A DNA stretch of 64,000 nt from Canna indica (taxonomy: Eukaryota; Streptophyta; Magnoliopsida; Zingiberales; Cannaceae), in NCBI GenBank assembly GCA_034359265.1, contig CP136891.1, positions 57,450,001-57,514,000 on the forward strand, written 5' to 3'. This document shows positions 8,953-59,815 of the stretch, piece by piece. How positions within the stretch are numbered: position 1 is the first letter of the stretch; each line of letters starts with the position of its first letter. The position numbers were made by a program, and so were the translations under genes. Under the pieces are notes generated by a model. It searched no databases. It was not told where the DNA came from and worked only from the letters and a program-made list of their open reading frames with translations.

Positions 8953-9439
8953 CACTACTAGAATATATCACATCAGCCACGGGAATCACCGACGGCCGCG
9001 TCGGCCGCTAGAATAATTCATGGCTTTTCGACGGTCGTAGCGGTCGTGGCTGATGTAACCAAATCAACCGCGGCTCGCATACGACCGTCTAGAGCCGTCC
9101 CTCATAGTTCATGGCGCGCACGGAGCGCGAAATAAAATAAGTTATTAGTCATGACTTAGCGGGGGCGCGAGAGCCGTTTGTGATATGAATAAATCATTAG
9201 TCACGACTAGAAGCGGTTGTCGCTTATTAATTAATGGCGAGAACGCAGCACGAAAATTAAAACACTCTGCACCGACGGCTTAGAGAGGGCCAGCCGTCGG
9301 TGATATTAAAATGACGAATCCACGGTTTTTCGACGGCTGGCGAGCCGTGGGTGAAAATACTTTTTATTTGTGTTCGTGCCCGACCCTTCCTCTTTCCCCC
9401 ACTCTCTTCTCTCTCCGTCGCTGCCAACCGATCGCCGAC

Positions 9440-10825
9440 GAAAATGGCCCCAACTTTCGCAAAATTTTTAATTTTGACCAATCCTTTGATTGGTCTCAAT
9501 TGTATATAAGAACTTTCGAATTTATTTCAATAATAGCCCTCCGTTTGAAATCGTGAATATGGTTGTTATTTCGCTGATGTGGCGATCCAAAAATAATTTA
9601 AAAAACCTCACTCACCATGTCAGCTCAATATACGTCAGATTACCTTTTAATACCCATCCACCCGGGTCCCACCTCTCTCTCTCCTCTCTACTCTCTCTCC
9701 CGCACTAACATGGAGATGAAGACGGCGGGCAAGCAGTGTGTTGGAGAACGAAGAGGACTACCGCTATGGGGCTGTGGAAGTACACATGTCGAGGGTCATG
9801 GCAACGTGGACCAACCCGATGGCGGAGCAGGACACACCGGGTCCTACCGACAACGGCGGAGGGTGTGACGGATGAGTTGTAGAACTAAAGCACTTCGTGG
9901 AAATGCGACATCGTCGATGTGGCACCGTCCCTTGCTCCGATTGTCGATGTCAATGACAGTATGGAGAGGAGGAGCAGGAAGGCCGAGAAGAGATGTAATG
10001 GAGGCGCTGTATTGAAGGTTGGATTGAAGGCGTCATTGCATGCTAGCGCTCACACGTATTGAAGGTTCTTTGTAGTAGATTTATAGAGAATCAGAGGGAA
10101 GTCAACATGGTAAGAAGACAAAGATAATACTCCTCGAGCAAAGAAAGTGGGATCGTGATGGAGAGGAACTCCATGGGGTCCGTGAGAACCTCCGGCGGGC
10201 AGAGGCCGTAGGCCGGTGGCAGAACCTCTGCTCCCCCAATGCGGACTGCTCTCATCCATGGAGGCAAATAGTGGAAGCTTCAGTAGGAGAAATATTTATA
10301 CAGTACAAGTATATGAATATTTCAACATGTTCCTCGATTATAACAGTACAATTATTTCTTCATCAATCTAACTAATTAGTTCATGAAGCAGGCCACCAAC
10401 TAACTTCAGCTAGTGTTGCAGCCGCGGAGGCGACGACGACCACCATGGCCTCCTTCTTGGTTAAAATGTCCGATTAAGTTAGTATTCTGCTGCGGATTGA
10501 TTGAGTCATTCTCAAGTGATTCAGTCAAACACATTTCCTCTATCATTTCATCTCAAGCATGCATGTGTGTCTCCTCCAACAGGAGTGCAGCCGCAAGTCA
10601 CTTGTTCTTCCAACAGCCACACGATGGGCTACTTCGGGAGAAGCGGTTGAGACTTGGCTTTGACTGCACAGGTGCGGCAGCGGCGGCAGCTAAGTGTTTC
10701 GTCGGAGCAAAGGTAGCAAACATATTGAAACAAATTCGAAAGTTCTTATATACAATTGAGATCAATCAAATGATTGGCCAAAATTAAAAAATTCATAAAA
10801 GTTGAGGCCATTTTCTTCTAATAAC
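9440..10825. mobile_element. MULE-like inverted-repeat element inside CACTA 1
   Basis: The stretch 9443-9530 (GAAAATGGCCCC..., TTTTAATTTTGACCAATC, ATATAAGAACTTTCGAA) reappears as its reverse complement at about 10725-10820, giving terminal inverted repeats of roughly 90 bp. Such long repeats are typical of Mutator-like elements. The interior from about 9700 to 10480 is much richer in GC than its surroundings and holds partly open frames. One minus-strand frame from the ATG near 10250 reads MRAVRIGGAEVLPPAYGLCP, which could be captured gene sequence. I found no clear 9-bp target duplication, so the exact borders are uncertain. Confidence 0.6.
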
Positions 10826-11089
10826 CCTATTTATATTGCACTTACTTTATTTCTTTTAGTCATTATTCATTTTTAAATTTTGACTTCTATCTCCCTTGTT
10901 CTCCAATACGCGCCCAGATGATATGCGTATTCGGAGAACTGTAGGGAGATGCTGCTGAAATTTAGAATGAAGTTAATGACTAAAAGAAATTCTAAGTGCA
11001 ATATAAATAATATGAATCTCGAATGGAATAGGACCATCTCACCTAAAGACATTACCTAAAGATATTGCCAACTTTTTGACAGAATATGT

Positions 11090-12442
11090 TGTTGGCTTAA
11101 GGGTTCCCCCCTTAGGCTTTGATCTTCATTTTGATGATAACAAACAAGTATTTAACATATGTGTGTGAAGTTTTGAGTTCCGGATGAGGTTGCGATAAGC
11201 ATGCGAACTTCAGCGAACCTCGCTCGGAGAAATGAAAGGAAAGAACGTCAAGAAAGGTTCGAATGTAGGTTGAGTATAAATCTTGTAAAGTTATCCAAGT
11301 TAAAACTTGGTAACTAAACCCATGAAAAAGCATGCAACAAAGATAAGATACAAATCAGCCTCAGCCTAAGTTTGGTCGAACGAACAAGGCAGAAAAATGG
11401 CAGTAGCCACTTCGGTCGATCGGTCGGTCAACCGAACATATGCAAAAATCAGTAGTGGCTATTTTGGTCGACTGGGCGATCGACCGGACAAGGCCAAAAA
11501 ATGACAGTGGCTACTTCGGTCGACCGACCGAGGCCAAAAATTGGCAGTGCCTACTTCGGTCAACCGATCGGTCAACTGGATAGCAGAGGAGCTGAAACAT
11601 GACTCATTCGGTCGACCCTCTGGTCAATCGAACAGAGCCGTAGAAGCGCAAAAAGCCAGCAGTCGTTGGGCGGTCGATCGGTCGATTGACCGACGATCGA
11701 CCGACAAGCGAACGAACGGCGTCAAATGGGCAAAAAAAACACCCATTGAGGAGCCGTTCGGTTGAGGGGTTATAAATACCCCTCACCTAACTTCTTTAAA
11801 CTCTCTTAACATCTAATACAAGCTTAAAGAAGAGAGATTTGTGTCTTCTAGAGATTGATTACTTGCGCTCGCTTCTCCGATCAACGTCTTCTCAAGCGCT
11901 CATCTTCGCTCAACTTGGGCTTCGATTTAAGCTCAACGACTTGGCGAGTTGAATGCTTTGAAGGCTTGGAAAAGAGCATTTGATCTTGGTCTATTTCTTA
12001 GCTCTTTTCGTTGAAATTTTAAGTGTTGTTTATACTTGTTTTCATTGGTTAGCTTGCTAGGTGTGCTAGTGTAAACACTTAGGGTTTACTTTGTAGAATT
12101 ATGTTTTGCCTAGGTGAATAGGTTTGAGGTGTTCTCAAAGGGTTGAGAATAGAGTCCTCGATTATATTCAAAGTGAAACGCAAAGTCTATAAAGTAGTTG
12201 GTTAGAAATCCTTGGTGTGAAGGTAGTGGAGTAGGCGGTTGGCCGAACCACTATATTTTCAAGTGTTAGAATTGCCTTGTGTGTTTGTTTTCAATTGTGC
12301 TTCATATTCACTAACGAACATTACTTAGTTGCACTTGAATTTGATTGAAATTGAAATTGGTAAAAAAAGAGAATTGAAGTATATTAGGTAAGTAACCCAA
12401 CAATATTCAACCCCCCCTTCTAGTGTGGGATTTCACTCAACA
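11090..12442 (+). repeat. Solo LTR, 1.35 kb (family A), inside CACTA 1
   Basis: Starts TGTTGGCTTAAGG and ends CACTCAACA. It is flanked by TATGT (11085-11089) and CATGT (12443-12447), a 5-bp duplication with one mismatch. It shares TTTTGATGATAACAAAC, TATAAATACCCC and GTAGTGGAGTAGGCGG with the family members at 5999 and 34.2-35.5 kb. It lies just upstream of the transposase start codon of the CACTA element. In CACTA 2 the same upstream region has no LTR, so this is an insertion into element 1. Confidence 0.8.
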
Positions 12443-13359
12443 CATGTCGGGCGATCAAAGTTGGATGTATCGACGAATTCATCGTGAAGCTAGTACGGAC
12501 TGAAGCGCAAAAGCCAGCAGTCGTTGGGCGGTCGATCGGTCGATTGACCGACGATCGACCGACAAGCGAACGAACGGCGTCAAATGGGCAAAAAAAACAC
12601 CCATTGAGGAGCCGTTCGGTTGAGGGGTTTTAAATACCCCTCACCTAACTTCTTTAAACTCTCTTAACATCTAATACAAGCTTAAAGAAGAGAGATTTGT
12701 GTCTTCTAGAGATTGATTACTTGCGCTCGCTTCTCCGATCAACGTCTTCTCAAGCGCTCATCTTCGCTCAACTTGGGCTTCGATTTAAGCTCAACGACTT
12801 GGCGAGTTGAATGCTTTGAAGGCTTGGAAAAGAGCATTTGATCTTGGTCTATTTCTTAGCTCTTTTCGTTGAAATTTTAAGTGTTGTTTATACTTGTTTT
12901 CATTGGTTAGCTTGCTAGGTGTGCTAGTGTAAACACTTAGGGTTTACTTTGTAGAATTGTATTTTGCCTAGGTGAATAGGTTTGAGGTGTTCTCAAAGGG
13001 TTGAGAATAGAGTCCTCGGTTATATTCAAAGTGAAACGCAAAGTCTATAAAGTAGTTGGTTAGAAATCCTTGGTGTGAAGGTAGTGGAGTAGGCGGTTGG
13101 CCGAACCACTATATTTTCAAGTGTTAGAATTGCCTTGTGTGTTTGTTTTCAATTGTGCTTCATATTCACTAACGAACATTACTTAGTTGCACTTGAATTT
13201 GGTTGAAATTGAAATTGGTAAAAAAAGAGAATTGAAGTATATTAGGTAAGTAACCCAACAATCTTCAACCCCCCCTTCTAGTGTGGGATTTCACTCAACA
13301 CATGTCGGGCGATCAAAGTTGGATGTACCGACGAATTCATCGTGAAGCTATAACGGACG
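11643..13359 (+). repeat. Direct tandem duplication of an 858-bp segment
   Basis: The segment from GAAGCGCAAAAAGCCAGCAG (11643) to about 12500 is repeated almost base for base at 12502-13359. The unit spans the 3' two thirds of the LTR plus the first codons of the CACTA transposase. The first transposase start is therefore a truncated duplicate (12444-12500) and the usable one is at 13302. The two copies differ at only a handful of positions by eye, so the event is recent. Confidence 0.9.
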
Positions 13360-13680
13360 AATTTCGAGTAGGCGCAACTTACTTCTTATATTTCGCCGGC
13401 TCGAATAAAAACTTCCTTAGTGGTGATAAAATCCGATGTCCGTGTCGAAAATATTCAAACATAAGATTTTTGGACCGAAAAATTGTCACAATGCATCTGT
13501 ATACAAAAGGATTCACACCAAGATATTTTCTATGGAATTGTCACGGGGATGTCAAGTCAGGACGTCGAGCAATCCTGTTGTCCAAACTCATGGTGAATCT
13601 TCTTCTACTGGTGTTTCTTCTTCCAATCTACCTAATCCTTATAGAACAATGATTTTGGATAGTCTTGGAGGATAATTCCA
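13302..13680 (+). pseudogene. CACTA transposase, Transposase-associated domain
   Basis: The ATG at 13302 opens MSGDQSWMYRRIHREAITDE, the start of the N-terminal Transposase-associated domain found in plant CACTA TNP2/TNPD proteins. It continues with IRCPCRKYSN (zinc-binding Cys pattern) and a MHLYTKGFTPRYFLWNCHGD block. The same domain occurs at 28077-28330 in CACTA 2. The frame shifts near 13560 and stops by 13675, so the transposase is not made as one protein. It is the first exon equivalent of the transposase remnant that follows. Confidence 0.85.
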
Positions 13681-13777
13681 TTTAAATGATAATATTGAGT
13701 CAGTTATTGAGACGGTAGTGCCACCAGATACTACGACAGTTGAAGTCACTGAATAACAACCTGCAATACAGATTGAA

Positions 13778-14980
13778 TTGTCGAATAAGGAGGCTGCAGA
13801 ATTTTATGAGATGTTGAAAGCTGCCTATGAACCTTTGTATGAGAATTGTTCTAAATATACAAGATTTTCAGCAATGACGCAACTCCTGAACATCAAGTCC
13901 GATTGTAATATCAGTGGGGTTGTGTTTGATCGGATTGCAGGCTTTATCAATGGTATGCTACCTCCAAATAACAAGTTTGAGCCAACTTTTTATAAGACAA
14001 AATAGTTGATGAGGAAATTAGGGCTTGGGTACGAAAAGATACACGCGTGCCCAAATAACTGCATTTTATATTATAAAGAAAATGCACAATTAGAGTAATG
14101 TTTGGTATGTGAACATCCTCGTTACAAGGAGAATAAATTGGTCCGATAAAAAAATATTCCCTTTAAGGTGCTTCGGTATTTTCCACTGACACCGAGGCTT
14201 CAAAGGTTATTCGGTATTGTCATCGAAAGCAAAACTTTACTTTACGAGCTGCTATATTTTGGACAATCAATTATTTCTCAACACATGACATATTGTCTGG
14301 TTGGAGCACAGATGGCCGACTCTCTTGCCCGTATTGCATGGAACACTCAAAATCCTTCAGTCTTGAGAACGGTCGAAAAATTTTCTTCTTTGATTGTCAT
14401 CACCAGTTCCTACTATCTAACCATCAGTATCGAATGAATCGTGACAAATTTACCAAGGGTAGAGTCGAAAGAGATGAGCCACCACCGATGTTGTCTGGTG
14501 AATAGATGTTAGCACGCGTTCAATTGCTTCCAGAAATTACTTTTGATCGGAATGTAAGAATTTCAGGCTTTGGTTAAACATATAATTGGGTGAAAAAAAA
14601 GTATCTTTTGGGAATTGTCATATTGGAGTTCATTACTGATTCAGCATAATTTGGACGTCATGCACATTAAAAAAAATGTGTTTGATAATATTTTTAACAC
14701 TGTGATGGATATTTCCGGCAAAACTAAAGATAATGTGAAGGTCCGACATGATGTGAAAGTACTTTGTAAGAGGCCTGAGTTAGAGTTGCAAGAGGTCAAC
14801 GAACGACTTCATAAGCCAAAGGCGTAGTATGTGTTAAATAAACAACAAATGAAAGATGTGTATCAATGGATAAAAGAACTCAGATTACCAGATGGATATG
14901 CCTCAAAGTTATCTCGATGTGTAAACATCGATGAATGCAAAATATCGGGGATGAAGAGCCACAATTGTCATGTATTCATG
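13778..14980 (+). pseudogene. CACTA TNP2-type transposase core, degenerate
   Basis: Several plus-strand frames together match a plant TNP2 (Transposase family tnp2) protein. The first has FYEMLKAAYEPLYENC and GVVFDRIAGFINGMLP. Next comes CSTDGRLSCPYC-like sequence in overlapping frames near 14300-14350, then CHHQFLLSNHQYRMNRDKF. Another frame has LDVMHIKKNVFDNIFNTVMD, the conserved HNLDVMHIEKNV block, near 14650. Frameshifts and stops separate the parts. The intact enzyme would cut at the CACTA termini to excise and reinsert the element. Confidence 0.85.
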
Positions 14981-15525
14981 TAGAGATTGCTTCCGGTCGC
15001 GTTTCGAGATCATCTACATGATAAGATTTAGGGTCCGTTGACAGAATTAAGTATATTTTTCAAAAATATTTATGCAAATGTACTTCGAGTCGAAGATAAG
15101 TCAGCACTTGAAAATAATATTGTTGAAATCATATGCAAGCTAGAGCAGTTTTTCCCTCCTGTATTTTTTGACTCAATAGAGCATCTACCGATACACTTGG
15201 CATACGAGGCATGAGTTGGTGGCCCCGTTCAATATCGGTTGATGTACTTATTTGAAAGATACATGAACCGTTAGAAGAAAAAAGTAAATAACACCGCCGC
15301 AGTTGAAGGTTTCATATCAGAAGCATATATAATTCAAGAAATTTCAATATTCTGCTTATTTTATTTTGAATCAACCATCAAGACAAGACTTAATCATCTT
15401 CCACAGAACGACGACGGGGGAGCTCGACCATCAGATGGTTGTTTAAATATCTTTTATTACCCCTGTCGTACTTTGGTTCTCATCTGTCTTGATTCTTAAA
15501 TGACGAAGAGTACCATTTAGCCTAC
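14981..15525 (+). pseudogene. CACTA transposase DUF4218-like region
   Basis: Translation shows RLLPVAFRDHL, then LEQFFPPVFFDSIEHLPIHL and GPVQYRLMYLFERYM, the order seen in the DUF4218 region downstream of the tnp2 domain. In-frame stops (for example after HDKI near 15030) break it. Confidence 0.8.
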
Positions 15526-16398
15526 TTGTACGTTTTACTAAACTGTCCAGAGATTGAAAAGTTCATTGAAATATTTGACATTGAGATGGTGATAAAAAAC
15601 TCAATTTACAGCGATGAGGAATTAGAAAGATTACGAAATCGTGAGTTCCCTAATTGGTTTCAAGCTTACAGCATAGAACACAGAGGCGAAATAGATAAGC
15701 AAATCTTTGAGTTTGCTACCGGACCGGCACGACTTGTACAGTGTTATAATGGTTATTTTGTTAATGGATATAAATTTCACACACTTGAATATTCATCTAC
15801 AAAAAAGACTATGAATGTTGGAGTCTGCGTCAATGGGACAACGTATGTTGAATGTGATATTGACGTTTACGGACTATTGGAAGAAGTCATAGAATTACAA
15901 TTTTTCGAATGTAAATCAGTTGCCCTTTTTAAATTGTAATTGGTTCGATACATGAGAGTTCATCCAAACTATAAACAGCGGGTCGAGGTCAATTACAAAT
16001 CAAAATTGGCTTCAAATGAGTCATTTATATTAGTATCTCAAGCTGAACAAGTATATTATATGCAGTATCCATCTCGAAAGAAAGATAGGGCAAATTGGTG
16101 TGTAGTCTGTAAGACTAAAGCTAGAGGAAAAATTAACCCGGTAGTTGGAGAGAATGAGCCAGTAGATGACTTCTATCAAGAAGAGGATCCTTCCGAAGTG
16201 GAACGAGTTAGTCCAATACTCGAGGATGATGACACAGAGTTAGTTCAATTGGAAATAGAATACGTTGATGACGACGATAATGCAGTTGAGAAAGGACAAA
16301 ATGATGATGAGGGAGAAGAAGAAGAATTTCAAGATTCCGATATAAAAGAACAAGAAGAAGAGTATTACACGGATGATGATAATGACGATGACGAATAA
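15526..16398 (+). pseudogene. CACTA transposase C-terminal (DUF4216-like) region with acidic tail
   Basis: Two abutting frames (15526-15939 and 15940-16398) are separated by one stop codon. The first has NREFPNWFQAYSI and TKKTMNVGVCVNGTTYVECD, like the DUF4216 region at the C-terminus of TNP2 proteins. The second has NESFILVSQAEQVYYMQYPS, a common block near the end of these proteins, then a very acidic tail of Asp and Glu. Reading through the single stop would rejoin the region, so decay here is mild compared with the core. Confidence 0.85.
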
Positions 16399-16481
16399 TT
16401 ATAAATGTGAAGTATATATTCAACTATTAAATATATCTATTAATCTATTATATATAATCTAATTATATTAAATTTTTACAG

Positions 16482-18112
16482 CTATGGTTCGAGATATCAG
16501 TTATCGAGGAGGCATTCCTCGTAGGACCCCCCGATGATTACCACCCGCCCCACATGTACCGACTGACCCTTCGCCTTCCACCACCATCCCCCCACCTGAT
16601 CCGTCCATTGTTCCCTCACCTGATCTGGCCACCATCCCCTTACCTCCGACTACCATCCCTCCACCACCCTCTGCAGATCCAGGACCATCTGTCATCTTCC
16701 AAACATAGGCCACGAGGGCCTAACAGAATTCTTCCTCCGCCACCCGAGGGAGAACTGCGCAGACCAATTAGTGTGCGCGGAAGACGGTAAGTATATGCAT
16801 TAATTATTTCTTATAATTTATTTATAATTCAAAATATCATAATATGAATTTATATTTGGTGCAGCTTTGAGCAAGAGGACGTCCCCCGCACGATAGCGGG
16901 GACGATCCAAAAGTTTATGCACGGGGCGTGGCCTACACGGTCTCACGTACCCCATGAGCATATGGATTTATTATGGCGAGAGTTCTCGGTAAGTATATTT
17001 ATTAAATTACTGTTAATATTAAATATTGATCGGTAATAATAATAATTTTTTTGTAGGCTCATTATACAAAGCCAGAGGACCAGATCACTTTTGTTAAGGC
17101 TGCATGGGAGTGTGTTGCCCGCGCTCACTATAACGGACTGCTTCAGTAGGCCCGTCAGACCGTGATGAGATGGCTAGGGGCCCTACAGATAGGGCAGACT
17201 CAGGGACACGCCCTCGAGTGGATTCCTAGCCCTGTGTGGGACCAGCTCGTTGAGTAGTGGGACATGCCTAAATGGCTGGAGGTCTCCCGGATTGCGTCGA
17301 GAAACTGCATGTCCGGGGGGACAGCACGGGGGCACGCCACACTGGTGGCTCCGTATCTTCTGCAGTTCATGCGTGTCGCATGGTATGCATAATTTAATTA
17401 TTGTTAATTAAATTATATATTGTGTATAATGATACTAATGTATTTGTTTTTTAATGTAAGACGCGTGTGGAGGAGGACGGCACCATCCAACGCCCGTCGA
17501 TGATGGAGGTGTTTGAGCGCATTCACCATCGTCGACGAGAAGCGGGGGACTACGTTGATAGCAGAGCCTCGATCATAATGGTAAGTATTTATGTCTATTT
17601 GATTTACATAATATTTATTTGTAGTTTATATATATTTAAAATATAAACACGTGTAGGAAATATACACGATGACTATGATCGAGCGTGGAGGCACACCGGA
17701 GGAGTTCGACGCAGCAGCTTGGATGGAGGCCGCAAGTGGCTGGGAGCACGGTCGTGTTTATGGCTTTACAAATAGTGGCCATGCACGCGCCGTGCTCGGG
17801 CCACTTGGGGCACCGACCCCTCCGATTGTGGGTGAGCAACCCTCGACATCTTGAGTGCAGGATCAGAGCCGGATACCGGCCTTGGAGTCGGAGCTCACCC
17901 AGCAGAGACATGCGATGGAGGAGCAGAGGCTGGCGATGGAGGAGCAAAGACGGACGAATGAAGAGTTGAGACAGACGATGCAGAACATGCAGGCACTCCT
18001 CACTCAGATTGCATCTCACTCTGGCCTTCTACCGATGATGTCGCAACCGTCGTCCTCCTCAACCCAGTCGATGCTCCAGACCCAATCGTTGTCGCCTCCA
18101 CCGCAGCCGTGA
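16482..18112 (+). pseudogene. CACTA second gene, Transposase_24-like
   Basis: Exon-like blocks separated by AT-rich introns read, in order: a proline-rich leader (16484-16790); FEQEDVPRTIAGTIQKFMHG with AWPTRSH (about 16866-16990); a block from AHYTKPEDQITFVKAAWECV (about 17058) to GHATLVAPYLLQF (17390); EEDGTIQRPSMMEVFERIHH (about 17465-17580); and a C-terminal exon from 17658 that ends in a coiled coil rich in Gln, Glu and Met (17855-18010) before a Ser/Gln tail. The order matches the plant Transposase_24 (Ptta/En/Spm) family, the presumed DNA-binding partner of the transposase. Stops at several places, for example before ARQTVMRW and in PVWDQLVE-WDMPK, show decay. Confidence 0.8.
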
Positions 18113-18755
18113 GATTTTGGTTTATTGTATTTTGTTTATATTTTGATACTGGTTTGTATACCAATAGTTGTTTATATACTTTTGGTTGTATATATATATA
18201 ATATTTTGATAATTGTTTGCCTCCGGTTTGAGACTTAGATTAATGATATTTATGTAAAACTTGTATGTTCGGTTTCAAATGCATGTGTATGATATTTTTT
18301 TGTTGTAATCTATGATTGAAAATAGATTATAATCTATAAATATCATTGTATACAAAAATTTATAAAAATTTTATTTTTTCAGTTACAAGATATACCTATA
18401 GCCACGGTTTACCAACGGGCGATCGTCACTAAGCTTATCGTAAATGGCTGATAGCTTGGGCAGCACCAAATATCACGATTGCTAATAGTATCACTGACAG
18501 CCTGATGTTGTGGCTGATGTGTTAGTATTAGTGACAGCTGCCTACAGCCGTCACTGATGTGTTTAAATCAGCGACAACGCCCGCGGCTGTCGCTGATGAT
18601 TACTTATGACGGCGTCTCTCAACCGTCACAACTTATATAAGATGCACACATCAGTGACGGCGTTTTGCTATGGCTAACACTGTCCGTGATAGTTATCACC
18701 GATGGTTCATCCACAGCTTGAGTCGTCGGTGATGACGATAATTCTAGTAGTGGTA

Positions 18756-24880: not shown

Positions 24881-25385
24881 TATTAGAATAGGGATGACAA
24901 CGGTTCGGTTAAGCGCACTTTTAAGGAATAACCGAAATCGAAACCGATTTCTAAACCCGCTAACCGAAATCGAAATTGAAATCGGTCGATTTCAAAAACT
25001 TGTATCTGAAACCGAAACTGGCTCGGTTTCGATTATCCGCGGATAATCGAAACTGAATTATTCGATTCGGAGAGAATCGGTTATTCATTTTCTAATCGGT
25101 TAATCGGTGGTAGACGGATAATCGGTTCAAAGATTAATAACCAAAAAGTGATTAAAAGACACCAAACAATGATTAAAAGATAATAATTAAATAGTTCATC
25201 AAAATACATTGAGGTAAACAGTTCATCATCAAAAAATACATTGAAGAAAATATATTGAAGTTGTTGAACATAAAAACTTCAAAAGATTATACAGAACAAC
25301 AAATTGGCAACTCAATATCAGGCTTTGTTTACATCATTTGATAAGGGTGGTTCATAGCAAGAGGAGAGAGAATCAAACAACGCTA

Positions 25386-26019
25386 TCATTTAGGGTTCAC
25401 AGGAGAGAGAACAACCTCGTCATCTTCGTCTCCATCACAATCTTCCTCGTCAACCTCCTGTACCAGCAAGTCCAAATAGCAGTTTAGCTCTGTTGTTGGA
25501 TTGTTAAGGAATAGGTATGGCATTGACTAGTAATTTAAACTGGATGGTCCAAGGATCAGAGCTATACTACTGGTACCATACCACCTCTAATAAGTAATGA
25601 ACTAGTATTTAAACCCTTAGTTAAGTGTAAGGAATATGATTAAAAATGCAAGAATTCAATAACTCACGTTGCTAAAGTACTTCAAGGGATTGGACCATAA
25701 ATCTTCCTTTATTATCTCGGCCACCTGAAAATAGGCCAAAAACCACTTCCTTGAGTCGGGAATATGTGAAGATGGGACTAATAAAGACAACTTTTCTTCC
25801 CTTCTTTAATTTTTGTGGTGACAAGAGGGAAAGAAAATATTAGCATGTAAAGTTGTTAACAATTAAAGTAGCAACCACGAGTGTGTTTCCAAACAATAAT
25901 ATTTTCATGCAAAATAAGCAAATACATAATCTGTCAAGTGCAACCTCAGAAAACCAACCTCATCACAGATCCCTTCTGAGAGATATTTATGTTGAGTATC
26001 ACTGAACCAGGTGAAGAAA
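25386..26019 (-). pseudogene. Captured 3' part of a NAP1-related (SET/NRP) histone chaperone gene
   Basis: Three minus-strand exons with GT-AG borders are visible. 26019-25959 encodes FFTWFSDTQHKYLSEGICDE. 25724-25668 encodes VAEIIKEDLWSNPLKYFSN. 25457-25386 encodes EVDEEDCDGDEDDE followed by a short tail and TGA. In order these match the end of plant NAP1-related proteins (the FFTWF-D-QH, IIKEDLWPNPLKYFNN and acidic-tail blocks), which bind H2A/H2B in the nucleus. The N-terminal dimerisation helix and most of the earthmuff domain are absent, so the intact function cannot remain. Introns are kept, so capture was at DNA level and not by retroposition. The frame is open across all three exons. 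Confidence 0.85.
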
Positions 26020-26536
26020 CTGATGCAGAAATGGAGAAAGGGTAAATATGGATACATAAGTTTGTCTTACTTACATGTGAACATAAAAATGAAAAAGACC
26101 ACATTTATTGAATGAAATATCATTATGTGTTAATTAGAAAGTGATATATGGACAATCGCAACAAATAGATAAATCCAAGCAAAAACACAATCTTAATGTA
26201 TTGATTAATCAAATGACTGACACCATCACAATGTTGATCCATAACCAAAGATGATCCTGTGAAATCAAGAGATTTATGTTACGCTACACATACTACTCTC
26301 TTTGAAACACCAGAACATTGAGCCAAAGAAATCTGTATCTGCTCTTAACTCAGTCATGAAAGTGTGTCAAGTTCCACGAAAAAAATATTCAATTACTTAT
26401 ACGATGTAATTGGTTGCATAAAGAATCACGAAACAACCAAATTCGTTCACCCCAAACCATATACAACAAGAAAACTCATATCTAAGTTCCATTTGAATAA
26501 ACAACTAAATTGATTCTCAGTTCACAATAGATCTAA
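26020..26536 (-). other. Unassigned interior of the hAT element
   Basis: This lies between the captured NRP exons and the CACTA insertion. A polypyrimidine-AG site followed by an open stretch near 26265 (minus) could be another exon, but I recognise no domain. It is probably NRP intron sequence. Confidence 0.3.
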
Positions 26537-28076
26537 CACTACTAGAAATATGTTATTCAGCAACGGCGATCAACAACGATGGCTCGGGCTGTTGCAATTT
26601 CTAACAACGTTCTTACGGCCACTCAGGCCGTTGCAGATGTGATATATCTACAACGGCTTTGTTACGGTCGCTTGAGCCGTTGCTAACAAGTGGATGGCGC
26701 GAACGCGGCGCGCAAATAAAATAACTTATTTACAACGGCTTACTAAAGGCCGCGATGACCATTGTTAATGATATTATCACATTAGTAATGGCTTAATTAC
26801 GACTACTGCATCTGTCACTCTTTAGCCAATCGCACGCTCGCGGCGTGAAAATAAAATACTTATCAGCAAATGTGTTGCAAAGGCCGCGTAGCCGTTGCTG
26901 ATGATGTTACTTATCAACAACGGTATTCTAACGGATGAGTGAGCCATTGATGATGATGTTACTTATCAGCAATGGCTTTCTAACAGATGATTGAGCCGTT
27001 GCTCGTAAGTTTATTTAACTCGGCCCAATTGCTCCCGCCCCTTTCCTCCTTCTTCTTCCTTATTTTTGCCACCGCCGCTGCCGATCTTCGCCCACCCGTC
27101 GTCGTCGCCCGCAATCGCCCACCGTCGTCACCCGCTCCAAGTAATTTCAGCGCCCTCTCTCCTATTTATTGTAGAATCGGCAGGTGGCCGAAGCATTGTC
27201 CAGGGTCCGACATATGTCGGACACTGGACGTGGGCGCCGAAAAAGTGAGTTAATATTTAGAGTTTTTTTAAACCCTAAATTTTTTTATTACTCTAATTAA
27301 TTAATTATCTATATTAATTGTGAACTGTTTAGATAAATTTTTCAAATTTTAGATATTTTTTTTTATGTTTTAAGTTAATTTTTCATGTTTAGACTAGTCT
27401 TGGTTAAATGTTTAGATTATAATGTTTAATGTTTTTTTAATGTTAATTAGATTTAGATTTAGTTTTAGGTTATATCTATTAATTAATTTTAGTTTAAATT
27501 AATTTTAATGTTAGACTTTAGATTTAGATTAATTAGAATCGTCGACTTTGGATACACGCTAGAATCGTTCACTTTGGACCAGTGCCGGAATCGTCCACTG
27601 TGCACTCAAACCGGCATCGAAATATTTAGAAAATAATCATCCATCCGACGTGTTGATACATTTCACGTACGCATCGACGAGTCGGATATGATTTAGCAAA
27701 ACTTTAGATCCATTCGGGGGTTGTATGTTCGTGTAAAAGAAGTAGATGATCTTTTATACGACATACAACCCTTGAATTATCCCTGATTGGATAATTTGGG
27801 AATATAGTTATTTGTATTGCACATAGTTTTTTCTTTTAACTATTAACTCATTAATTCTTAAATTTTGGCTATTGTGTCTCTTTTGTTCTTCGATACGTGC
27901 CCAAATGATATGCGTATTCGGAGAACTGTAAGGATCGAGATGCTGCCAAAATTTAGAATGAAGTTAGCGGTTAAAAGAAATACTTAGTGCAATATAAATA
28001 ACATGAATCTCGAATGGAATAAGACCATCTCACCTAAAGGCATTAATTAAAGAAATTGTTATTGATTGAGAGAATC

Positions 28077-28676
28077 ATGTTGGGCGATCGAAGTTGAATG
28101 TACCGACATCTTGATCGTGGAGCTTTAACGGATGAGTTTCGATTAGACGTAACTTACTTCCTAAATTTTGCCTATTCGAATCGAAAATTCATTAGCGTCG
28201 ATGATAAAATCCGATGTTTGTGCCGCATTTGCTTGAATGCACGATTTTGGGATCGGGAAACTGTCACTCTGCATCTGTATAGCAAAAGATTTGCACCAAA
28301 ATATTTTCTGTGGACTTGTCATGGGGAATCACGTGAAGTCGGGATGTCGAGAAATCTTGTCGTTCAAATACATGGTGATTCTTCCTCTACTAGTGTTTCT
28401 TCATCCAGTCCATCTAATCACCATAGAATTATGATACTTGATAGTCTTGGGGGTCAATTCCAGCTGAATGATAATGTCGATCGGCCAGTTACTGAGACAT
28501 CGGTGCCACCAAATACTACGGGTGTTGATATCACAGAAGTACAACCTCCTGCCGCTAATCCTTCTACCGCTGAGGCTAGTTCATCGAGACGTAGACGGCC
28601 ACGTGGGCCAAATAAGATTCAGCCTCCGCTAGCCACAGAACAACGCCAACTTATTTCTGTGATTGGCGAGCGGTAA
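28077..28676 (+). pseudogene. CACTA 2 fused ORF: Transposase-associated domain plus second-gene leader
   Basis: The first codons from 28077 contain a stop, then an open frame runs 28098-28676. Its N-terminal half is the Transposase-associated domain (YRHLDRGALTDEFRLDVTYF, IRCLCRICLN, TLHLYSKRFAPKYFLWTCHG). Its C-terminal half, with SSSRRRRPRGPNKIQPP, is the basic/proline-rich leader that starts the second gene in element 1 (compare 16700-16790). The roughly 3 kb of transposase between them is gone, so an internal deletion has fused two genes. No catalytic residues remain. Confidence 0.85.
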
Positions 28677-28749
28677 TATATTATGAATTATGAATTATAT
28701 ATAATTCATTATATCATAATATAATATTTTTCTTTATTTTGGTTGTGCA

Positions 28750-29961
28750 GGTTCCAGCAGGAGGATGTCCCTAGGACTATATCTGGCCATCTGGGACAAT
28801 TCGATGATATATGCATGGGGCCTGGCCCAGTTGGTCTCACATGTCGCGTGAGCATGTGGACATGCTTTGGTGCGAGTTTGAGGTATGTATTTGAAGTTTT
28901 TTAATCAGCTTGATTATTATTGGTACTGATATTATTATTTTGTAGGTTCACTATACTTGGCCAGAGGAGCAGAGATCATTTATTTACAATGTGTGGGAGG
29001 CCATTTCTCGGCAAAGGTATAACTGCCAACTAGGGCAGGCTCGGGCACAGGCGATGGCTCGAGCTGGGGCCACAACCATAGCGGAGACTCGGGGATACAG
29101 TCCCGATTGGATTACTTCAAATATTTGAGATCAGCTCGTATCGATATGGTTGACCGAGCGGTGGTAGGAGGTATCTAGGACTGCGGCTGGAAACCGAATG
29201 TCGGGGGGAGGAGCGCGTCACACTGGCGGCTCTGTTTCATTTGTCATGCACGCGAGACGCATGGTAAGTATTATACCTTATTTTGAATTATATATTTTAT
29301 TTATTACTTTGTGTACTAATTAATGTATTTGTTTTATAAATATAGACGACGGTGATGGATGACAGCATTATCCAGCGACCCTCCCCGATGGAGGTGTTTG
29401 AGCTGACTCATCGTAGAGGACATGGGGCGGGGGAGTACATCGACAGCCGTGCTGCAGTCATCATGGTAAGTATATTTGTTTCAATTTTGCATTATTTATT
29501 TATAATATAAGTTTTTAAAAAAAAATGAAACGAAAACCAAACTCGTGTAGGAGACCTACACTCAAACGGTGACGCGGTGCGGGGGCACCCCCGAGGACTT
29601 TGACGCAAGAGCGTGGGTCGAGGCTGCAGATGGCTGGGACCACGGCCGCGTCTTTGGCTTTGCTGATAGTGGCCATGCGTGAGCCGTGCTCGGACCACTT
29701 GGGGCACCGACCCCTCCGATAGTAGGTGAGCGACCCTCCACCTCCAAGATTAATGATCAGAACATGAGGATATCGACACTGGAGGAGACGATTGCACGAC
29801 AGAGTCAGATGATGGTTGAGATGCATGTCATGCTGAGACAGATGACAGGTCAATCCAGCGGTGTACACTCAGATTCATCGTCATCGACTCAGTCCATGCC
29901 GGTGTACACTCAAACACTCTAGACCCTATCGTATGATCCCGACCTTCCTCCACCGTCGTAG
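28750..29961 (+). pseudogene. CACTA 2 second gene, Transposase_24-like
   Basis: Exon-like blocks follow the same order as in element 1: RFQQEDVPRTISGHLGQ (28750-28882), VHYTWPEEQRSFIYNVWEAI to HTGGSVSFVMHARRM (28946-29264), SIIQRPSPMEVFELTHRRGH (29345-29465), and ETYTQTVTRCGGTPEDFDAR with a coiled-coil tail (29551-29925). Introns are short, AT-rich and begin GTAAGT or GTATGT. Stops inside the second block (two near 29128-29167) and after SGHA (29681) break it. The protein would bind the subterminal repeats of the element. Confidence 0.8.
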
Positions 29962-30690
29962 CGATCTTGTTTTATGATACTTAGTGATCTTGGAGATACT
30001 TGTTACTTGATTGACTTGTTTGGATATTGATTCGTATCGTGTTGATACGATAGTTTTGATTTTGTATTATGGATATTTATAATTATAAGTATAATTATTT
30101 TTATGTATATATGGGTGTATCTTTGATGTGTATGTGAATGTATGTGAATGTATGTGTGTATGGGTGTGTGAGTTATGTATCAGGTTATAAATGTATCAAT
30201 GAAAATTTCTAATTTTGAAATTTCTCAGTTACAGGTTAACATCATCAGCAACGGCCTTCCCATGATCGTTCGTGTGAAAGCCGTTGCTGAAAGTGTATCG
30301 TAATACCTGGGCCACAAACTTAAAACCGTTACTAATGAACAACAACGACGACTTAGCAACAACCTTTCAGCAAAAGCTTTGCAACGGCGTGGCAGCCGTT
30401 GCTGATGGCAATATCCGCAACAGTCCACGCGTCGTTGCAGAACCGTTGCTGATAAAAGCAGTAGCAACAATCGTGCCTCGTTGCTGAGCCGTGGTTTATG
30501 ATGTATGAACAACGGGGGAAGCTCGTTCCGAAACCGTTGTTGATAATAGCATTAACAATGACGTGAGCGGCCGTTGCAGATCCGTTGTTAAGTTATCAGG
30601 TACGCGATCTTCTGCAACGACTGCGTTGCAACGGGCAAAGTCGTTGCTGGCCGTTGCTGATGGTCTTCAACAACGACAGAGCAACGGATC

Positions 30691-30771
30691 CACTACTAGA
30701 ATATACCACATCAGCTACGGGGATCACCGACGGATATCCAGCCGTTGTTGATGCTCGTTATTCTAGTAGTG
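30691..30771. repeat. 81-bp mini-CACTA unit at the right end of CACTA 2
   Basis: An extra CACTACTAGA start occurs at 30691 in direct orientation, only 81 bp before the element's right end, giving a tiny unit with CACTA inverted repeats on both sides. Its first about 45 bases closely match the left end of CACTA 1 (8953-9000: GAATAT-TCACATCAGC-ACGGGAATCACCGACGG). The bases before it (ATC) do not match those after 30771 (TAA), whereas TAA does match the far left end, so it is not a simple nested insertion. Confidence 0.8.
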
Positions 30772-30809
30772 TAAGATCTATTCTGAGTTGAAAAGCACAG
30801 GGATAGTAC

Positions 30810-31220
30810 CTTCAACGAATCTTTGACAGAAGTAACCATTCTCGTAGACAAACTGGGAGACTTGCTTCTGCAAGCGATCGTTCTCCTCCATTAAAAGCTT
30901 GTTCATTGTTGTCAGCTTCCTGTTCACGATCTGAAGTTGTGCTTACTCCTTTCGTTGTTTCTCTCGACACCTATAAGGAGATGGCAAAAAAAAGGAAGAA
31001 TGTAAAGAAATGGATGATATATGCAACAAGTATCAAGCAAACTGCAAAACATCAATACCTCTGGTTCCGAAACCAAACTTTGATTTGCTTCGGCTCAATA
31101 TTGGAGAGGATAGGACACTCCCAGATGAGTTGTTGCCGCTGCAATGAGCTTGGGTTTGGGCATTCATGGTAGAATCTCTTGAGAGCTTCTACTTGCTCGG
31201 GAGAGGGAGAGGAGGCGGCA
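30810..31220 (-). pseudogene. Captured HD-ZIP III homeodomain-leucine zipper fragment
   Basis: Two minus-strand exons are visible. The first (about 31220-31059) reads PEQVEALKRFYHECPNPSS, then RQQLIWECPILSNIEPKQIK and VWFRNQR, the homeodomain of class III HD-ZIP proteins (REVOLUTA/PHABULOSA/ATHB8 group). The second (30971-30810) reads CREKQRKE, an in-frame TAA, then LQIVNRKLTTMNKLLMEEND and RLQKQVSQFVYENGYF, the leucine zipper. The splice phase joins at the Arg codon as in the family. Missing are the START, HD-SAD and MEKHLA regions, including the miR165/166 target. The premature stop lies between homeodomain and zipper. The intron is retained, so capture was from genomic DNA. Confidence 0.9.
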
Positions 31221-31567
31221 GAAGTGAGGAGAAGAGAAACTAGATTAAGGATTAAAGATTTTAGGGTAGAATATATAGAATTGGGTTAACGGGTTGCAGG
31301 TTGCGAGTATTAGAATTATTAATATATAATATATTATTATATATATAATTATTAATATATAATAAAATAGAAATCAATTTCGGTTATCAAATTATCCGCG
31401 ATCCGATAATCAAAATTGAATTGATTTAAAATGATTTTTGGATTTTACTAATCGAAATCGAAATCGAACCGCCAATCCACTATTCAAAATTGGATTTTAC
31501 GGTTCGATTAACCGATTAATCGATTAATCGTGATTAATAGATTTTAATTGTCACTCTTATATTAGAA

Positions 31568-32543: not shown

Positions 32544-33183
32544 TAGGGGTGAGCAAAATTTTTCAATTCACCGAAACTGAACCGAAATCGATCGAACCGA
32601 AATCGATTTAACTGAACCGAAATCGATCGAACCGAAACCGATTTAACCGAACCGAATTTACCGAATTAATTTTGGTTCGGTTTTCGATTAAAGAAAATTT
32701 CGAATTTTGGTTTTCGGTTCAGTTCGATAAATTAACCGACGATTCGATTAATTTATCGAATTAACCGAATATATATATATATAGTAACAATAATATTAGA
32801 TGTTGGTATTTGCCTTGGTGGATAAGTGTAATGTTAAGTTTCCCATCGGCCCAGGTTTGAATCTAGTATTGTGTAATATTATTTTACATTTGATTTATAT
32901 ATATAATATGTGTTAGTTAAAAATAAATTGAAAATAAAATTTGCTTAGATGGTTAAAGAGGTAAAAGTTAAAGTTTGGTTGCAAAATGCTTGGTTCAAGT
33001 CTTAGCACATGTATGTTTTTTGAAAAAAAAAATTGGTTATTTTTTTAAATCTTTTCGATTAATCGAACCGAATTAACCGAATTTTTTCGATTCGGTAAAC
33101 GGTTAAAAATTTCTTTTGGTTCGGTTCGATTAATCGATGATTCAGTTTGGTTATTAACCGAACCGAACCGATGCTCACCCCTA
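32544..33183. mobile_element. hAT MITE, 640 bp
   Basis: A perfect 12-bp inverted repeat, TAGGGGTGAGCA at the left and TGCTCACCCCTA at the right. It is flanked by GTCCACGG and GTCCACGA, an 8-bp duplication with one mismatch. Both ends contain arrays of AACCGAAATCG motifs facing each other, like those of the 24889-31559 element. The middle is AT-rich with no coding potential. Confidence 0.9.
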
Positions 33184-37233: not shown

Positions 37234-40200
37234 TGGATTGGCAGTTGCAGTCGAGAAAGGCGGAGTCTGGATGGTGGTGGGCGGCGGTGGCGATGGTGTA
37301 TGCCACCGTCCTGGTAATGCCTTGCTCCGCCGCTGACCCCTACGCTTACTTCGATTGGGACGTGTCCTACATCACTGCCTCTCCCCTTGGAGTTCCGCAG
37401 CAGGTGGGTGACTTCTGCTGCTGTTTCTATTCGCCCCTACTCGATCGTATGCTCTGCTTTTAGACATTTCTAGTTCTCGTTTATGCTTAGATTCAAAAAT
37501 GATGATGATGATGATATTTGTTGATGGTTTTCGAATACTCGAGTGTTTTTATTTTCCTTTTAGGATCGGTTTTAGGGTCTATAACGCGGATTTGTGGTGT
37601 CAATTGTATTGATGGCAGGTTATAGCGGTCTCGAAACAATTTCCTGGCCCTATTATGAACATTACAACCAACTGGAATGTGGTCGTCAATGTACTAAATA
37701 GCTTGGATGAGCCCCTCCTCTTGACATGGTATCATGTTCGATGTTCATCTTTTTGAATTTGCTTTTTAAGGGTTCAATTAAGGTTATCGATGCCGGTATG
37801 ACTATGTAGAGATGAATTTTGTTCTTTTGCTTGTCTTTTTGGTGACAAGGGATGGTATTCAGCAGCGCAAAAATTGCTGGCAGGATGGAGTGCTTGGCAC
37901 CAACTGTCCCATCCCACCGGGCTGGAACTGGACTTACCAGTTCCAAGTCAAGGACCAAATCGGTAGCTTCTTCTACTTCCCTTCTCTTGGCCTCCAGCGC
38001 GCTGCCGGTGGATATGGTGGGATCACTGTGAACAATCGCGAGGTAATCGCCGTGCCTTTTGGGAAGCCAGATGGGGACATCACCCTCTTCATCGGCGATT
38101 GGTACACCAAAAACCATACGGTCAGTTTGTATATTGATTATGTATTTTGATGAGTAAATTGCACTCTTGTTCTCAGTTCGGCTGAATGGATTTATCGTAC
38201 AGGACTTGAGGAAGGCACTTGATGCTGGGAAGGACCTTGGTATGCCTGATGGTGTCCTGATGAATGGAAAGGGACCATATCGCTACAATACCACACTTGT
38301 CCCTGATGGTATCGATTATGAAACCATCAATGTCGAACCAGGTAATAGTTTGTGATATGGTCGAATATTCCAACTGATAGAATTTTTAAACATATAAGTG
38401 ATAAAATTAAGTTGTTCCTCCCTCGTTTTCAATTTGCAGAAACAGATTGTCCTTGTTGTATGCTTGAACGCTCATGAATTTTGTCTGGAGTTGCAAATGA
38501 TGAATACATCTAATTTTGTCATTTTAAGTAGTTATTTCTTGCTTTCCATAATAAATTTGTGTCTGGTTATCTTTGACTGCGCCTAGATGTCTTAGCATAC
38601 AAATCATAATATACGATAACATTATCTCAAAAGTATTTTCCTCTGTTTTTTCAGATCTATGTGCAACTAATATTGCAATTTTTTTAGTAGAGCTTGCCCA
38701 AATTTTTGTTGATGACTTTGGCTGCTGATGGGATTGGATCATTTTAGATCCATTTCTGATTTATCTAATGATTGATATACATGCGGATGCTTTCTTTTGA
38801 AAAAAGATGATTTATAGGTATGTTTGTGTGTATATATGTTCTGATTCTTTATTGTGATGACAAGAGATGAGATTAAGGGTAATCATACAAACATTTTATA
38901 CACATAGATTGTCTTCATCTTATTCACATGAACATCCATGCCTAGCTGCTGTTCTTCATTTTATGTAGATGAAAAGCAATATTTATCTAATTCAAATCAG
39001 AGTGAGAATATAGGTAAGCCTTTTTCTACTCAAGGATATGTAGGAAACCATATGCCAAATGAACTGGTAGTATTTCACAATTCAATGCTAGAAGATAGGT
39101 AGATCTCTAATGATCTGTCAGGTCTCGTTTTCCAAGCATATTAGCCCATAGTTGAATCACTCTTCTTTTTTTTCCCTGATGCAGTTTCTGCTTTTTGCAT
39201 GTTGTTTCTTATGTTGCCTGAAAATGTTGTTTTCTTAAAATAGGTAAAACGTATCGCTTCCGTGTCCACAATGTTGGCACCTCAACTAGCTTGAACTTCA
39301 GAATTCAAAATCACAACCTTCTTCTTGTGGAGACTGAAGGAACATACACTGTGCAACAGAATTATACTAACCTTGATATCCATGTTGGCCAATCCTACTC
39401 CTTCTTGGTTACCATGGATCAGAATGCTAGTAGCGACTACTACATTGTGGCAAGTGCTAGGTTTGTGAATGAGTCACTCTGGACCAGAGTCACTGGTGTT
39501 GCGGTTTTGCATTATTCAAATTCCAAAAGCAAAGCATCTGGTCCTCTTCCATATCCGCCTAACGATTTCTATGACAAGACTTTTTCTATGAATCAGGCTA
39601 GATCTATCAGGTTTGTATAAATTTTCATATTGAAATTTCCAATATAATATTTTTCTTTTCATAATCTTCCTTCATTATAATATTTTTTTTGCTCAGTTAA
39701 CTAAGCATGTTTTGGATTTTTGGAATTCATAAATATCTTTTGCTCTTGGAATTTTTCAATGGGTACAGGAATTTTAGAATTAATAACTAAGCATGTTTTG
39801 GTATTTTTTCCTTATAAAAATAATTATGATGTATTAGTTTTTTATCTAAAGTTAGTAGATTTTTCTTTGGTTTTTGTTATCACCAGCTCTCTTCTTGTTG
39901 ATATTGTATTTCATTTTTAGGCTAATCTTTATAGCTTCTTTTTCGTCAAATGTTTTTCAGGATGAATGTAAGTGCTGGTGCTGCACGTCCTAATCCTCAA
40001 GGATCATTTAAATACGGTTCAATCAATGTTACGGAAGTATATCTTTTGAGAAATGCGCCTCCTCTCACAATCAATGGAAAACGTAGGACTACACTCAATG
40101 GTATATCATATTCTCCTCCTGATACACCCTTGAGGCTTGCTGATAAGTACGATTTGAAGGGAGTTTATACACTTGATTTCCCCACCAAACCACTTGATAC

Positions 40201-41474
40201 ACCACATCGACTTGGAGCATCTGTGATCAATGGCACATATAAGGGGTTCATGGAAATCATATTCCAAAATAATGACACCACCGTTCAGACATACCACATG
40301 GATGGATATGCATTCTTTGTTGTGGGGTATGGACAAGATTTGTAGTGTTTCTTGGTAGATATGGGGAACTACAGTTATTGTTCTTGTTTTTAGAGTAAAA
40401 TTGGTCTTGCTTAATTGTGGCAGGATGGATTATGGAGAATGGACAGAGGAAAGTAGAGGCACCTACAATAAGTGGGATGGAATTTCTCGTTGTACAACAC
40501 AGGTATCTGCTACAAGAGCTAATTCTCCGTATACTTTTGTGTGTTTCTTCTTACTTCTTTACTAATGTTCCAAATGATATTTCAGTTGAGTAAGCTAAAG
40601 TTGGTCCATGCTGGCACAAAGTCTTTTTGTTTTTTAACTGCTCCACATGAATATATTCTTCCTTTTTTTTCTTCTACTCCCTCTTTCTCTAGATTGAAAT
40701 GCATGTTGTTGCACCTTCTCTTTGAATTGGATTTAGAAGATTGGATCCGATATGATGATTATGTCCTCACCGTAACCAAATTTTGGCTTGACTTGAGTGC
40801 ATATCCTGATTAGTCTAACCCAATGTAGTCGATATGGCCCATTAGATATCTGCCATGAATTTTGATTGCTTTCATGCATGCGCTTCTTTCTTTTTTCAGT
40901 TTGCCATTTCTGACTAAGAATTAAGTAATTCGTTAAAGAGCCAATGGAAATTGACAGTGTTTCTATACATGCATTAGAGATACCTTCTTTGTAGTGATAC
41001 TTCTGTCTCAAAATTTGGCTCCACTCTTCGATTGTTAATCCTCACTTGATATTTACACTTTATCCCAGGTTTTCCCAGGGGCATGGACTGCTGTACTAGT
41101 CTCACTGGACAATGTCGGTTTTTGGAATGTTCGAGCAGAGAATCTTGACACATGGTACCTTGGACAAGAATCTTATGTGCGAGTTGTCAATCCTGAAGAT
41201 GATTCTAACAAGACCGAGTTGTTGATGCCAAATAATGTACTCTACTGTGGTCGCCTCAAAAATTTGCAAAAGTATGTCGTAAGAGCCTTAAAGTAGTACA
41301 TTTTTCTTCTTCCTTTCTTTCCTTTCAAGTTTGATATATGATTCAACATGGAAATTTTGCAGGGATAATCAGGTACCTCATGGCTCTCAAAGTTCGTCTT
41401 CTTTTGTCACATATGTCGGGGGCATGTTGCTTACGGCAATGTTGATACTAGTTTCTAGTGCAATTTTTCCGTAA
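37230..41474 (+). CDS. SKU5: SKU5-type multicopper-oxidase-like GPI-anchored protein, nine exons
   Basis: Exons 37230-37403, 37619-37728, 37850-38120, 38203-38341, 39244-39610, 39961-40326, 40424-40502, 41069-41271 and 41363-41474 have GT-AG borders and sum to 1821 bases, 606 residues plus stop. Residues 1-34 form a signal peptide with a WWW core; the mature protein starts near ADPYAYFDWDVSYITASPLG. Three cupredoxin domains follow (about 40-150, 165-310, 390-545). The copper motif HWHG is TWDG here (residue ~95) and the C-terminal Cys-His ligands are replaced by WNVRAENLDTWYLG, as in SKU5 proteins, so oxidase activity is unlikely. Many NxT/S sites suit a glycoprotein. The Ser-rich stretch and hydrophobic tail (GGMLLTAMLILVSSAIFP) are a GPI signal. 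Arabidopsis SKU5 affects directional root growth and cell-wall expansion. The GPI tail favours SKU5/SKS1-3 over secreted pollen SKS proteins. Confidence 0.95.
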
Positions 41475-59026: not shown

Positions 59027-59222
59027 CTTAGGGGGCGTTTGGTTGCCCGCAAGTGCAAATGTTGCAAAATCTATTTGCATGCAAAAGCAAATGCCCGCAA
59101 ATAGATTTTGCAGCATATCGTTTGGTTGCCCGCAAGTAGAGTTGCAACTTCTATTTGCAAGCGTTTGGTTGACCGCAAATGGAAGTTGCAATTGCACTTG
59201 CAACTTGTAATTTGCATCTTAC
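59027..59222 (+). repeat. MITE-like start with TTTGGTTGC repeats
   Basis: TTA|GGGGGCGTTTGGTTGCCC resembles a PIF/hAT MITE end. CGTTTGGTTG(C/A)CCGCAA recurs at about 59118 and 59162 with TTGCAACTTCTATTTGC blocks. The matching right end was not found; related TTGCAA motifs appear again near 60050-60100, so the minisatellite may lie inside the element. Confidence 0.45.
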
Positions 59223-59815
59223 GAATTTTTTCAAGCTAGGCCGGGCACAAATTTTTTCGAGACGGATCGGGCACGATTTTTGTTGGGCCGGGCCGTTCAC
59301 GAATTTTTTGGGCAGGCCACGAATTTTTCGGGCCGAGTCGGGCACGAATTTTTTTGAGTCGGACCGAGTCAGGTCGGGTCGTGCACGAATTTTTTCGGGT
59401 CGGGCTGGACACGAACTTTTTCGGGTCGAGCCAAGCATGAATTTTTTCGGGCCGGATCGGGCACGGATTTTTTTGGGTCGAGTCGAGCCGGGCAGTGCAC
59501 AAATTATTTTCGGGCATGGCCGGGCCGGGCAAGAATTTTTTTCGGGCCTGGCCGGGCTGGGCATGAATTTTTTTCGGGCCGAGCACGAATTTTTTCGGGT
59601 CGGGCACGAATTTTACCAGGTCAGGCCAGGCACAAACATTTTTCAGGCAGGCCGGACACAAATTTTTTTGGGCCGGGCCGGGCATGAACTTTTTTCGGGC
59701 CTCGCCGGGGACGAATTTTTCGGTCAGGCCGTGCATGAATTTTTTTAGGCCGGGCTGGGCTGAGCACGAATTTTTTCAGGCCGAGCCTTGCACAAATTTT
59801 CTCAGACTAGCCGAA
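59223..59815. repeat. GC-rich minisatellite, unit about 20-30 bp
   Basis: About 20 imperfect copies of GGCCGGGCACGAATTTTTTCG with variable joins. Because the unit lacks stops, long frames occur on both strands (plus 59179-59748 and minus 59736-59236, 59564-59151) with products made of repeated ARPGP/KKF-type and GRAGHEFF-type words. These are artefacts of the repeat and not genes. Confidence 0.9.

Follow-up and report, generated by a model that had tools for sequence, protein, structure and literature searches.

How do pieces of two unrelated host genes come to lie in tandem between the ends of a single transposable element? The question is raised by a 64,000-nucleotide stretch of the Canna indica genome (contig CP136891.1, positions 57,450,001 to 57,514,000, here called the window), in which positions 24889-31559 carry fragments of an HD-ZIP III gene and of a gene for a NAP1-related protein (NRP). 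This interval is a non-autonomous Ac-like hAT element of the Pack-TYPE kind, that is, a Pack-hAT. We regard it as highly probable that the element captured the two pieces serially, was dispersed to at least three places and, in the window copy, later received a CACTA transposon. The host genome scanned comprised 753 Mb in 9 contigs, and the window lies on the contig called C2 below. The features are as follows, in window positions.

24881-24888, no strand: left copy of the hAT target-site duplication, TATTAGAA
24889-24900, plus: left terminal repeat TAGGGATGACAA, identical in the copy on C9
24889-25363, plus: native hAT left end, with matches in the genome, the longest reaching about 25360
25364-26536, minus: main part of the NRP piece, comprising introns and three exon segments; identity to a gene on C3 about 92%
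25386-25457, minus: NRP acidic-tail exon region EVDEEDCDGDEDDE..., read as far as the in-frame stop
25668-25724, minus: NRP exon VAEIIKEDLWSNPLKYFSN
25959-26019, minus: NRP exon FFTWFSDTQHKYLSEGICDE
26534-26536, no strand: left copy of the CACTA target duplication TAA, a single TAA in the copies on C9 and C7
26537-30771, plus: nested CACTA of 4,235 bp with CACTACTAGAA ends, not present in the C9 and C7 copies
28098-28676, plus: CACTA frame with a Transpos_assoc domain (PF13963), E 1.3e-13
30772-30774, no strand: right copy of the CACTA target duplication TAA
30775-30824, minus: remainder of the NRP piece, the start of the split intron and the exon stub that joins HD-ZIP III
30823-31203, minus: HD-ZIP III piece, an intron with part of the exon on either side of it; a TAA stop lies at 30943-30945
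31059-31201, minus: HD-ZIP III homeodomain exon piece, beginning PEQVEAL
31198-31559, plus: native hAT right end; CGGGAG (31198-31203) is common to it and to HD-ZIP III
31548-31559, minus: right terminal repeat TAAGAGTGACAA, agreeing with the left repeat at 9 of 12 bases
31560-31567, no strand: right copy of the hAT target-site duplication, TATTAGAA

Without the CACTA, the element of about 6.7 kb measures 2,433 bp and consists of the native left end, the NRP piece with introns, the HD-ZIP III piece with its intron and the native right end, both gene pieces lying on the minus strand in the same orientation. A preliminary description of the locus had recognized a hAT element with two gene pieces over this interval, and the 8-bp duplication that it named is exact on both flanks, but it missed the CACTA, which makes up most of the 6.7 kb. 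The 12-bp inverted ends are where it had placed them, although TAGGGATGACAA and TAAGAGTGACAA agree at only 9 of 12 bases. Both gene fragments proved to be real, with other limits: about 30823-31203 instead of 30810-31220 for HD-ZIP III, and 25364-26536 plus 30775-30824 instead of 25386-26019 for NRP. The short terminal inverted repeats are of the TAGGGATG type (9 of 12 bases in the window, 10 of 12 in the C9 copy), a terminal motif that we take to be Ac-type.

The search for further copies that the preliminary description had proposed found the same ends and contents on C9 and C7, so that the fusion stands at three sites with different target duplications. The C9 copy has the ends TAGGGATGACAA and TAGGGGTGGCAA and an exact duplication, TGAGCAGT, and the C7 copy is flanked by CACATGAG and CACACGAG, a 7/8 duplication. 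The latter also contains its own insert of 1,165 bp, which starts with TGTTGG, ends with CCAACA, is flanked by AACAT and may perhaps be a solo long terminal repeat. The hAT ends are judged to be real because matches to the left end (24889-25363) were found at no fewer than 35 other genomic places (among the best 40 of 1,443 candidates) and because the whole unit occurs at two further sites with other target duplications. We rejected the idea that the ends are convincing by statistics alone, since an 8-bp repeat with 12-bp ends agreeing at 9 or more bases occurs 44 times in the window, compared with 5-19 times per shuffle in 15 shuffles. A first genome search, taken as the best 40 of 19,697 candidates, had returned mostly CACTA relatives, together with the copy on C9. 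No hAT transposase domain was found in the scanned frames of the hAT part (nine single and two joined), as is expected because the element is non-autonomous, and Rfam gave no match at gathering scores over the whole window.

A third TATTAGAA is found inside the element at 31308-31315. It forms part of a 12-bp stretch that matches the left flank, and this 12-mer occurred in 0 of 300 shuffled elements. We considered that it might be filler copied from the insertion site and discarded the idea, as the C9 and C7 copies carry TATTAGAA at the same internal place.

The parental genes, a search for which had likewise been proposed, have donor-like counterparts on separate chromosomes, NRP on C3 and HD-ZIP III on C1. 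The NRP piece matched NAP1-related protein 1 with E 1.3e-13; the protein database search for NRP returned one Aegilops protein. When the genome was searched with 25364-26536, with all six candidates scored, the matches were the three fusion copies, the C3 gene (92%) and, at C2:29.85 Mb, short stretches of 78-80% identity. Read by eye, the C3 locus holds exons from MVTDKGKK onward, upstream and downstream of the captured part, including a further acidic exon downstream that lies outside it. In the element, the end of the acidic-tail exon is probably near 25416, with NRP intron making up the remainder of that region. About 65 bp of NRP intron that are present in C9, C7 and C3 are missing from the window copy.

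The HD-ZIP III piece contains a homeodomain with E 3.1e-12. Among the best 120 of 422 protein matches, it shared 86% identity with a hypothetical protein of Punica (96% of the query covered) and 84% with a Sesamum protein named ATHB-15 (94% covered). A Canna protein in the same set could have been taken for a host-annotated product of the fusion, which was ruled out because it is read from the C1 gene. The genome search with 30823-31201, with all eight candidates scored, gave the three copies, a relic on C6, three short stretches of 136-150 bp and the C1 gene, whose match of 76% identity takes in the intron. The C1 locus, read by eye, runs on into START-type exons. Introns are present in both captured pieces and therefore the copying was from DNA, which supports the earlier proposal of a two-gene capture by a hAT at the DNA level.

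The CACTA at 26537-30771 is a separate, later insertion into an NRP intron. Its site is empty in the C9 and C7 copies, and the match to the C3 gene spans from 25364, across the CACTA site, to 30824. It follows that the CACTA sits in the NRP intron and that the NRP exon stub is joined to HD-ZIP III with nothing in between. The CACTACTAGAA ends stand at both tips within the 3-bp TAA duplication, a length that we presume to be usual for CACTA elements. For rice and maize CACTAs, a 5-nt target duplication is given in PMC8903248. Among the seven CACTA frames scanned, there were Transpos_assoc and weak Transposase_24 matches, and a protein search with the CACTA frame returned nothing at threshold; the nested CACTA has many relatives in the genome.

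The insertion fell in the middle of a palindrome, AATAGATCT-A-AGATCTATT (26526-26536 plus 30775-30782), which C9 preserves unaltered and C7 with a single change. A second, larger CACTA occupies 8953-18752 of the window. It has a GTA duplication, contains a tnp2 (Transposase_21) frame and shares 67-81% identity with the nested CACTA in three stretches.

For the order of the captures, the relic on C6 is informative. In this element, HD-ZIP III meets the hAT right end at the same junction as in the three copies, and there is an additional HD-ZIP III exon 3 (DYVVTNGQQHLTPQHPLRDVSPTG), which lies beyond the HD-ZIP/NRP junction of the fusion, while no NRP match was found in it. Because the C6 element shares the right junction, extends further into HD-ZIP III and is without NRP, we infer that HD-ZIP III was probably captured first and NRP second, and the sequential capture envisaged in the preliminary description is thereby favoured.

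The three junctions lie at 2-6 bp of shared sequence, which would fit template switching. At the left junction, two of the three relatives shown read GCAAATT, C3 reads ACAAGAA and the element reads GCAAGAGG, with CAA in common. At the middle junction, TT or TTT is common to C3 and C1. At the right junction, CGGGAG is common to HD-ZIP III and the native right end and is found in four of the six relatives shown; the C1 gene has CCGGAG, five of these six letters. We propose that an ancestral hAT would have copied part of an HD-ZIP III gene beside its right end, and that a descendant would have copied about 1.2 kb of NRP, introns included, between the left end and the HD-ZIP III piece, the two genes becoming joined within exons. 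The copying probably took place during repair of a break in the element, with template switches at the shared sequences of 2-6 bp. Transposase supplied in trans would then have carried the complete unit to three or more sites, at which the copies decayed, and the CACTA would have landed afterwards in the window copy.

Several observations weigh against this account. The C6 element has no recognizable left end and no matching upstream duplication. The overlaps at the junctions are short, and such overlaps can also arise by chance. The C1 gene is only 74-76% identical to the captured HD-ZIP III piece, and the real donor may have been a sister gene of it. Divergence among the copies is also uneven, with 82-89% identity at the right end compared with 94-95% in NRP; more uniform values would be expected if the unit had simply been assembled once and then dispersed. 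Loss of CpG was ruled out as the explanation, since the differences persist outside CpG sites (3.9-4.5% in NRP, 6.1-8.4% in HD-ZIP III, 7.2-9.6% in the left end and 9.2-14.6% in the right end). It is possible that exchange with other family members lies behind the higher divergence of the right end (31204-31559).

The changes in the NRP piece of the three copies are star-like. Identity was 94.5-95.0% among the copies and 91.6-92.2% with C3, and we counted 29, 23 and 29 private changes in the window, C9 and C7 copies, 7 conflicting, 7 other and 61 shared against C3. Among the private changes, C>T or G>A accounted for 10 of 29 in the window, 8 of 23 in C9 and 17 of 29 in C7. In the HD-ZIP III piece, 6 of the 13 odd residues in 96 homologous ones are CpG-compatible, and some of them are common to other copies. 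The evidence that the captured exons decayed mainly via CpG deamination is thus mixed.

An alternative that we consider unlikely, though deserving of some weight, is that a single repair event, in which the template was switched repeatedly, captured both pieces and that the C6 element later gained exon 3 or lost NRP by recombination. The two pieces and their junctions are indeed common to all three complete copies, and in HD-ZIP III the C6 element is as close to these copies (89-92% identical) as they are to one another (90-92%). However, an element with exon 3 past the HD-ZIP/NRP junction and without NRP is not simply derived from the fusion, and we prefer the serial capture.

It is improbable, in our judgment, that two neighbouring hAT insertions mobilized the DNA between them as one unit. 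This model has been reported for Pack-TYPE elements, hAT examples included (PMC8903248), and the hAT family has many copies. On the other hand, the pieces are internal parts of genes, donor-like genes with their flanks persist on two chromosomes, and no leftover left-end repeat was found inside the element with up to two mismatches allowed. The fusion could also be a working chimeric gene under selection, as GT-AG is kept at all four introns in the spliced model of the window copy and the pieces share their orientation. This is very improbable, since HD-ZIP III is interrupted by TAA in the window copy and by a different stop, TAG, elsewhere in C9, the longest ATG frames of the spliced models have 56 (window), 87 (C9) and 40 (C7) residues, one splice acceptor in C7 is AA, and the spliced models retain no fused reading frame. 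We infer that the fusion is without function. Imperfect ends and the frequency of 8-bp repeats with 9/12 ends might invite one to think that two pseudogene fragments lie in old intergenic DNA and that the hAT ends on either side of them match by chance. This has practically no probability and is refuted by the C9 and C7 copies, because the unit and its ends are the same at all three sites and the flanking duplication is a different one each time.

This Pack-hAT belongs to a larger hAT family. Of 30 relative loci scanned, eight yielded elements whose tips match and whose duplications agree at 7 or 8 of the 8 bases. Two of these eight (L037 and L046) carry an endo-beta-mannanase-like exon or frame; the L046 frame matched a solved endo-beta-mannanase with E 7.4e-21, L037 was matched by eye, and Pfam gave nothing for the frames of either. 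Judging from these matches, it is very probable that the family has taken up at least one further host gene, of the endo-beta-mannanase type. A wider proposal, in which the family captures serially (HD-ZIP III then NRP, and the endo-beta-mannanase exon in another lineage) and RNA from the fusion could feed small RNAs acting on the host HD-ZIP III and NRP genes, is quite improbable at present.

Motifs of the AACCGA/TCGGTT type occur 8-9 times per 250 bp in the left end and 4-5 times in the right end of the gene-carrying hAT, with a weaker cluster of 3-4 per 250 bp at 11251-11750. They are densest, at 18-21 per 250 bp, in another hAT of the window at 32544-33183. This element of 640 bp sits 1 kb from the gene-carrying one and has terminal repeats that agree at 12 of 12 bases (TAGGGGTGAGCA) and a 7/8 target duplication (GTCCACGG/GTCCACGA).

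Gene capture was described by Du et al. (2011, PMC3260210) as a rare feature of the hAT superfamily, and the word hAT is absent from the main text, as far as accessible, of a 2026 review of gene capture (PMC13317346). The novelty expected in the preliminary description holds to this extent, but hAT capture with introns is already published for grapevine (PMC2528002), for maize (PMC3260210) and, as Pack-hAT, for maize and rice (PMC8903248). The maize Ds2 and Ds-l4 elements of Du et al. resemble the Canna element in being non-autonomous hAT elements of the Ac type with host gene fragments and introns kept; Ds2-22 has two exons with the intron between them, and copying from genomic DNA was argued. 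In the portions of that paper drawn on here, the maize Ds cases with named donors involve one gene each, whereas the Canna element has two unrelated genes and a relic that bears on their order.

Gisby and Catoni (2022, PMC8903248) described Pack-hAT and other Pack-TYPE elements that are likewise non-autonomous, with terminal inverted repeats, 8-bp duplications and host coding DNA, and noted a second gene piece in a subgroup of a Pack-PIF family. Their model has neighbouring insertions mobilized jointly, whereas the Canna junctions lie inside genes at short overlaps. The grapevine Hatvine-6 elements of Benjak et al. (2008, PMC2528002) resemble the Canna family in having common ends and varied interiors that often match genic exons and introns, but they are described as sharing transposase coding sequence, of which the scanned Canna frames had none. 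The FoSTeST model for animal Pack-TIRs (PMC8277862) also combines template switching at microhomology with later transposition for the multicopy ones; microhomology at one or more breakpoints was reported in 190 cases (67.6%), with a median of 2 bp. Those elements differ in being from animals and in having small captured regions, with a median of 224 bp. No further two-gene hAT fusion was recognized in the accessible parts of the open-licence literature. The Canna element is an unusually well-resolved case of a known process, and not a new process. There are few worked-out cases of hAT gene capture, and in this one the junctions are placed within a few bases, with donor-like genes, three independent insertions and a relic for the order. 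This makes the family a good test case for gene pick-up by excision-type transposons, and it warns that HD-ZIP III and NRP matches in the Canna genome can be transposon-borne pieces.

Elsewhere in the window, 39222-40345 contains exons of a multicopper oxidase gene (Cu-oxidase and Cu-oxidase_2), probably a host gene. At 59151-59775, long open frames overlap on both strands over a short repeated unit, which is probably a tandem repeat.

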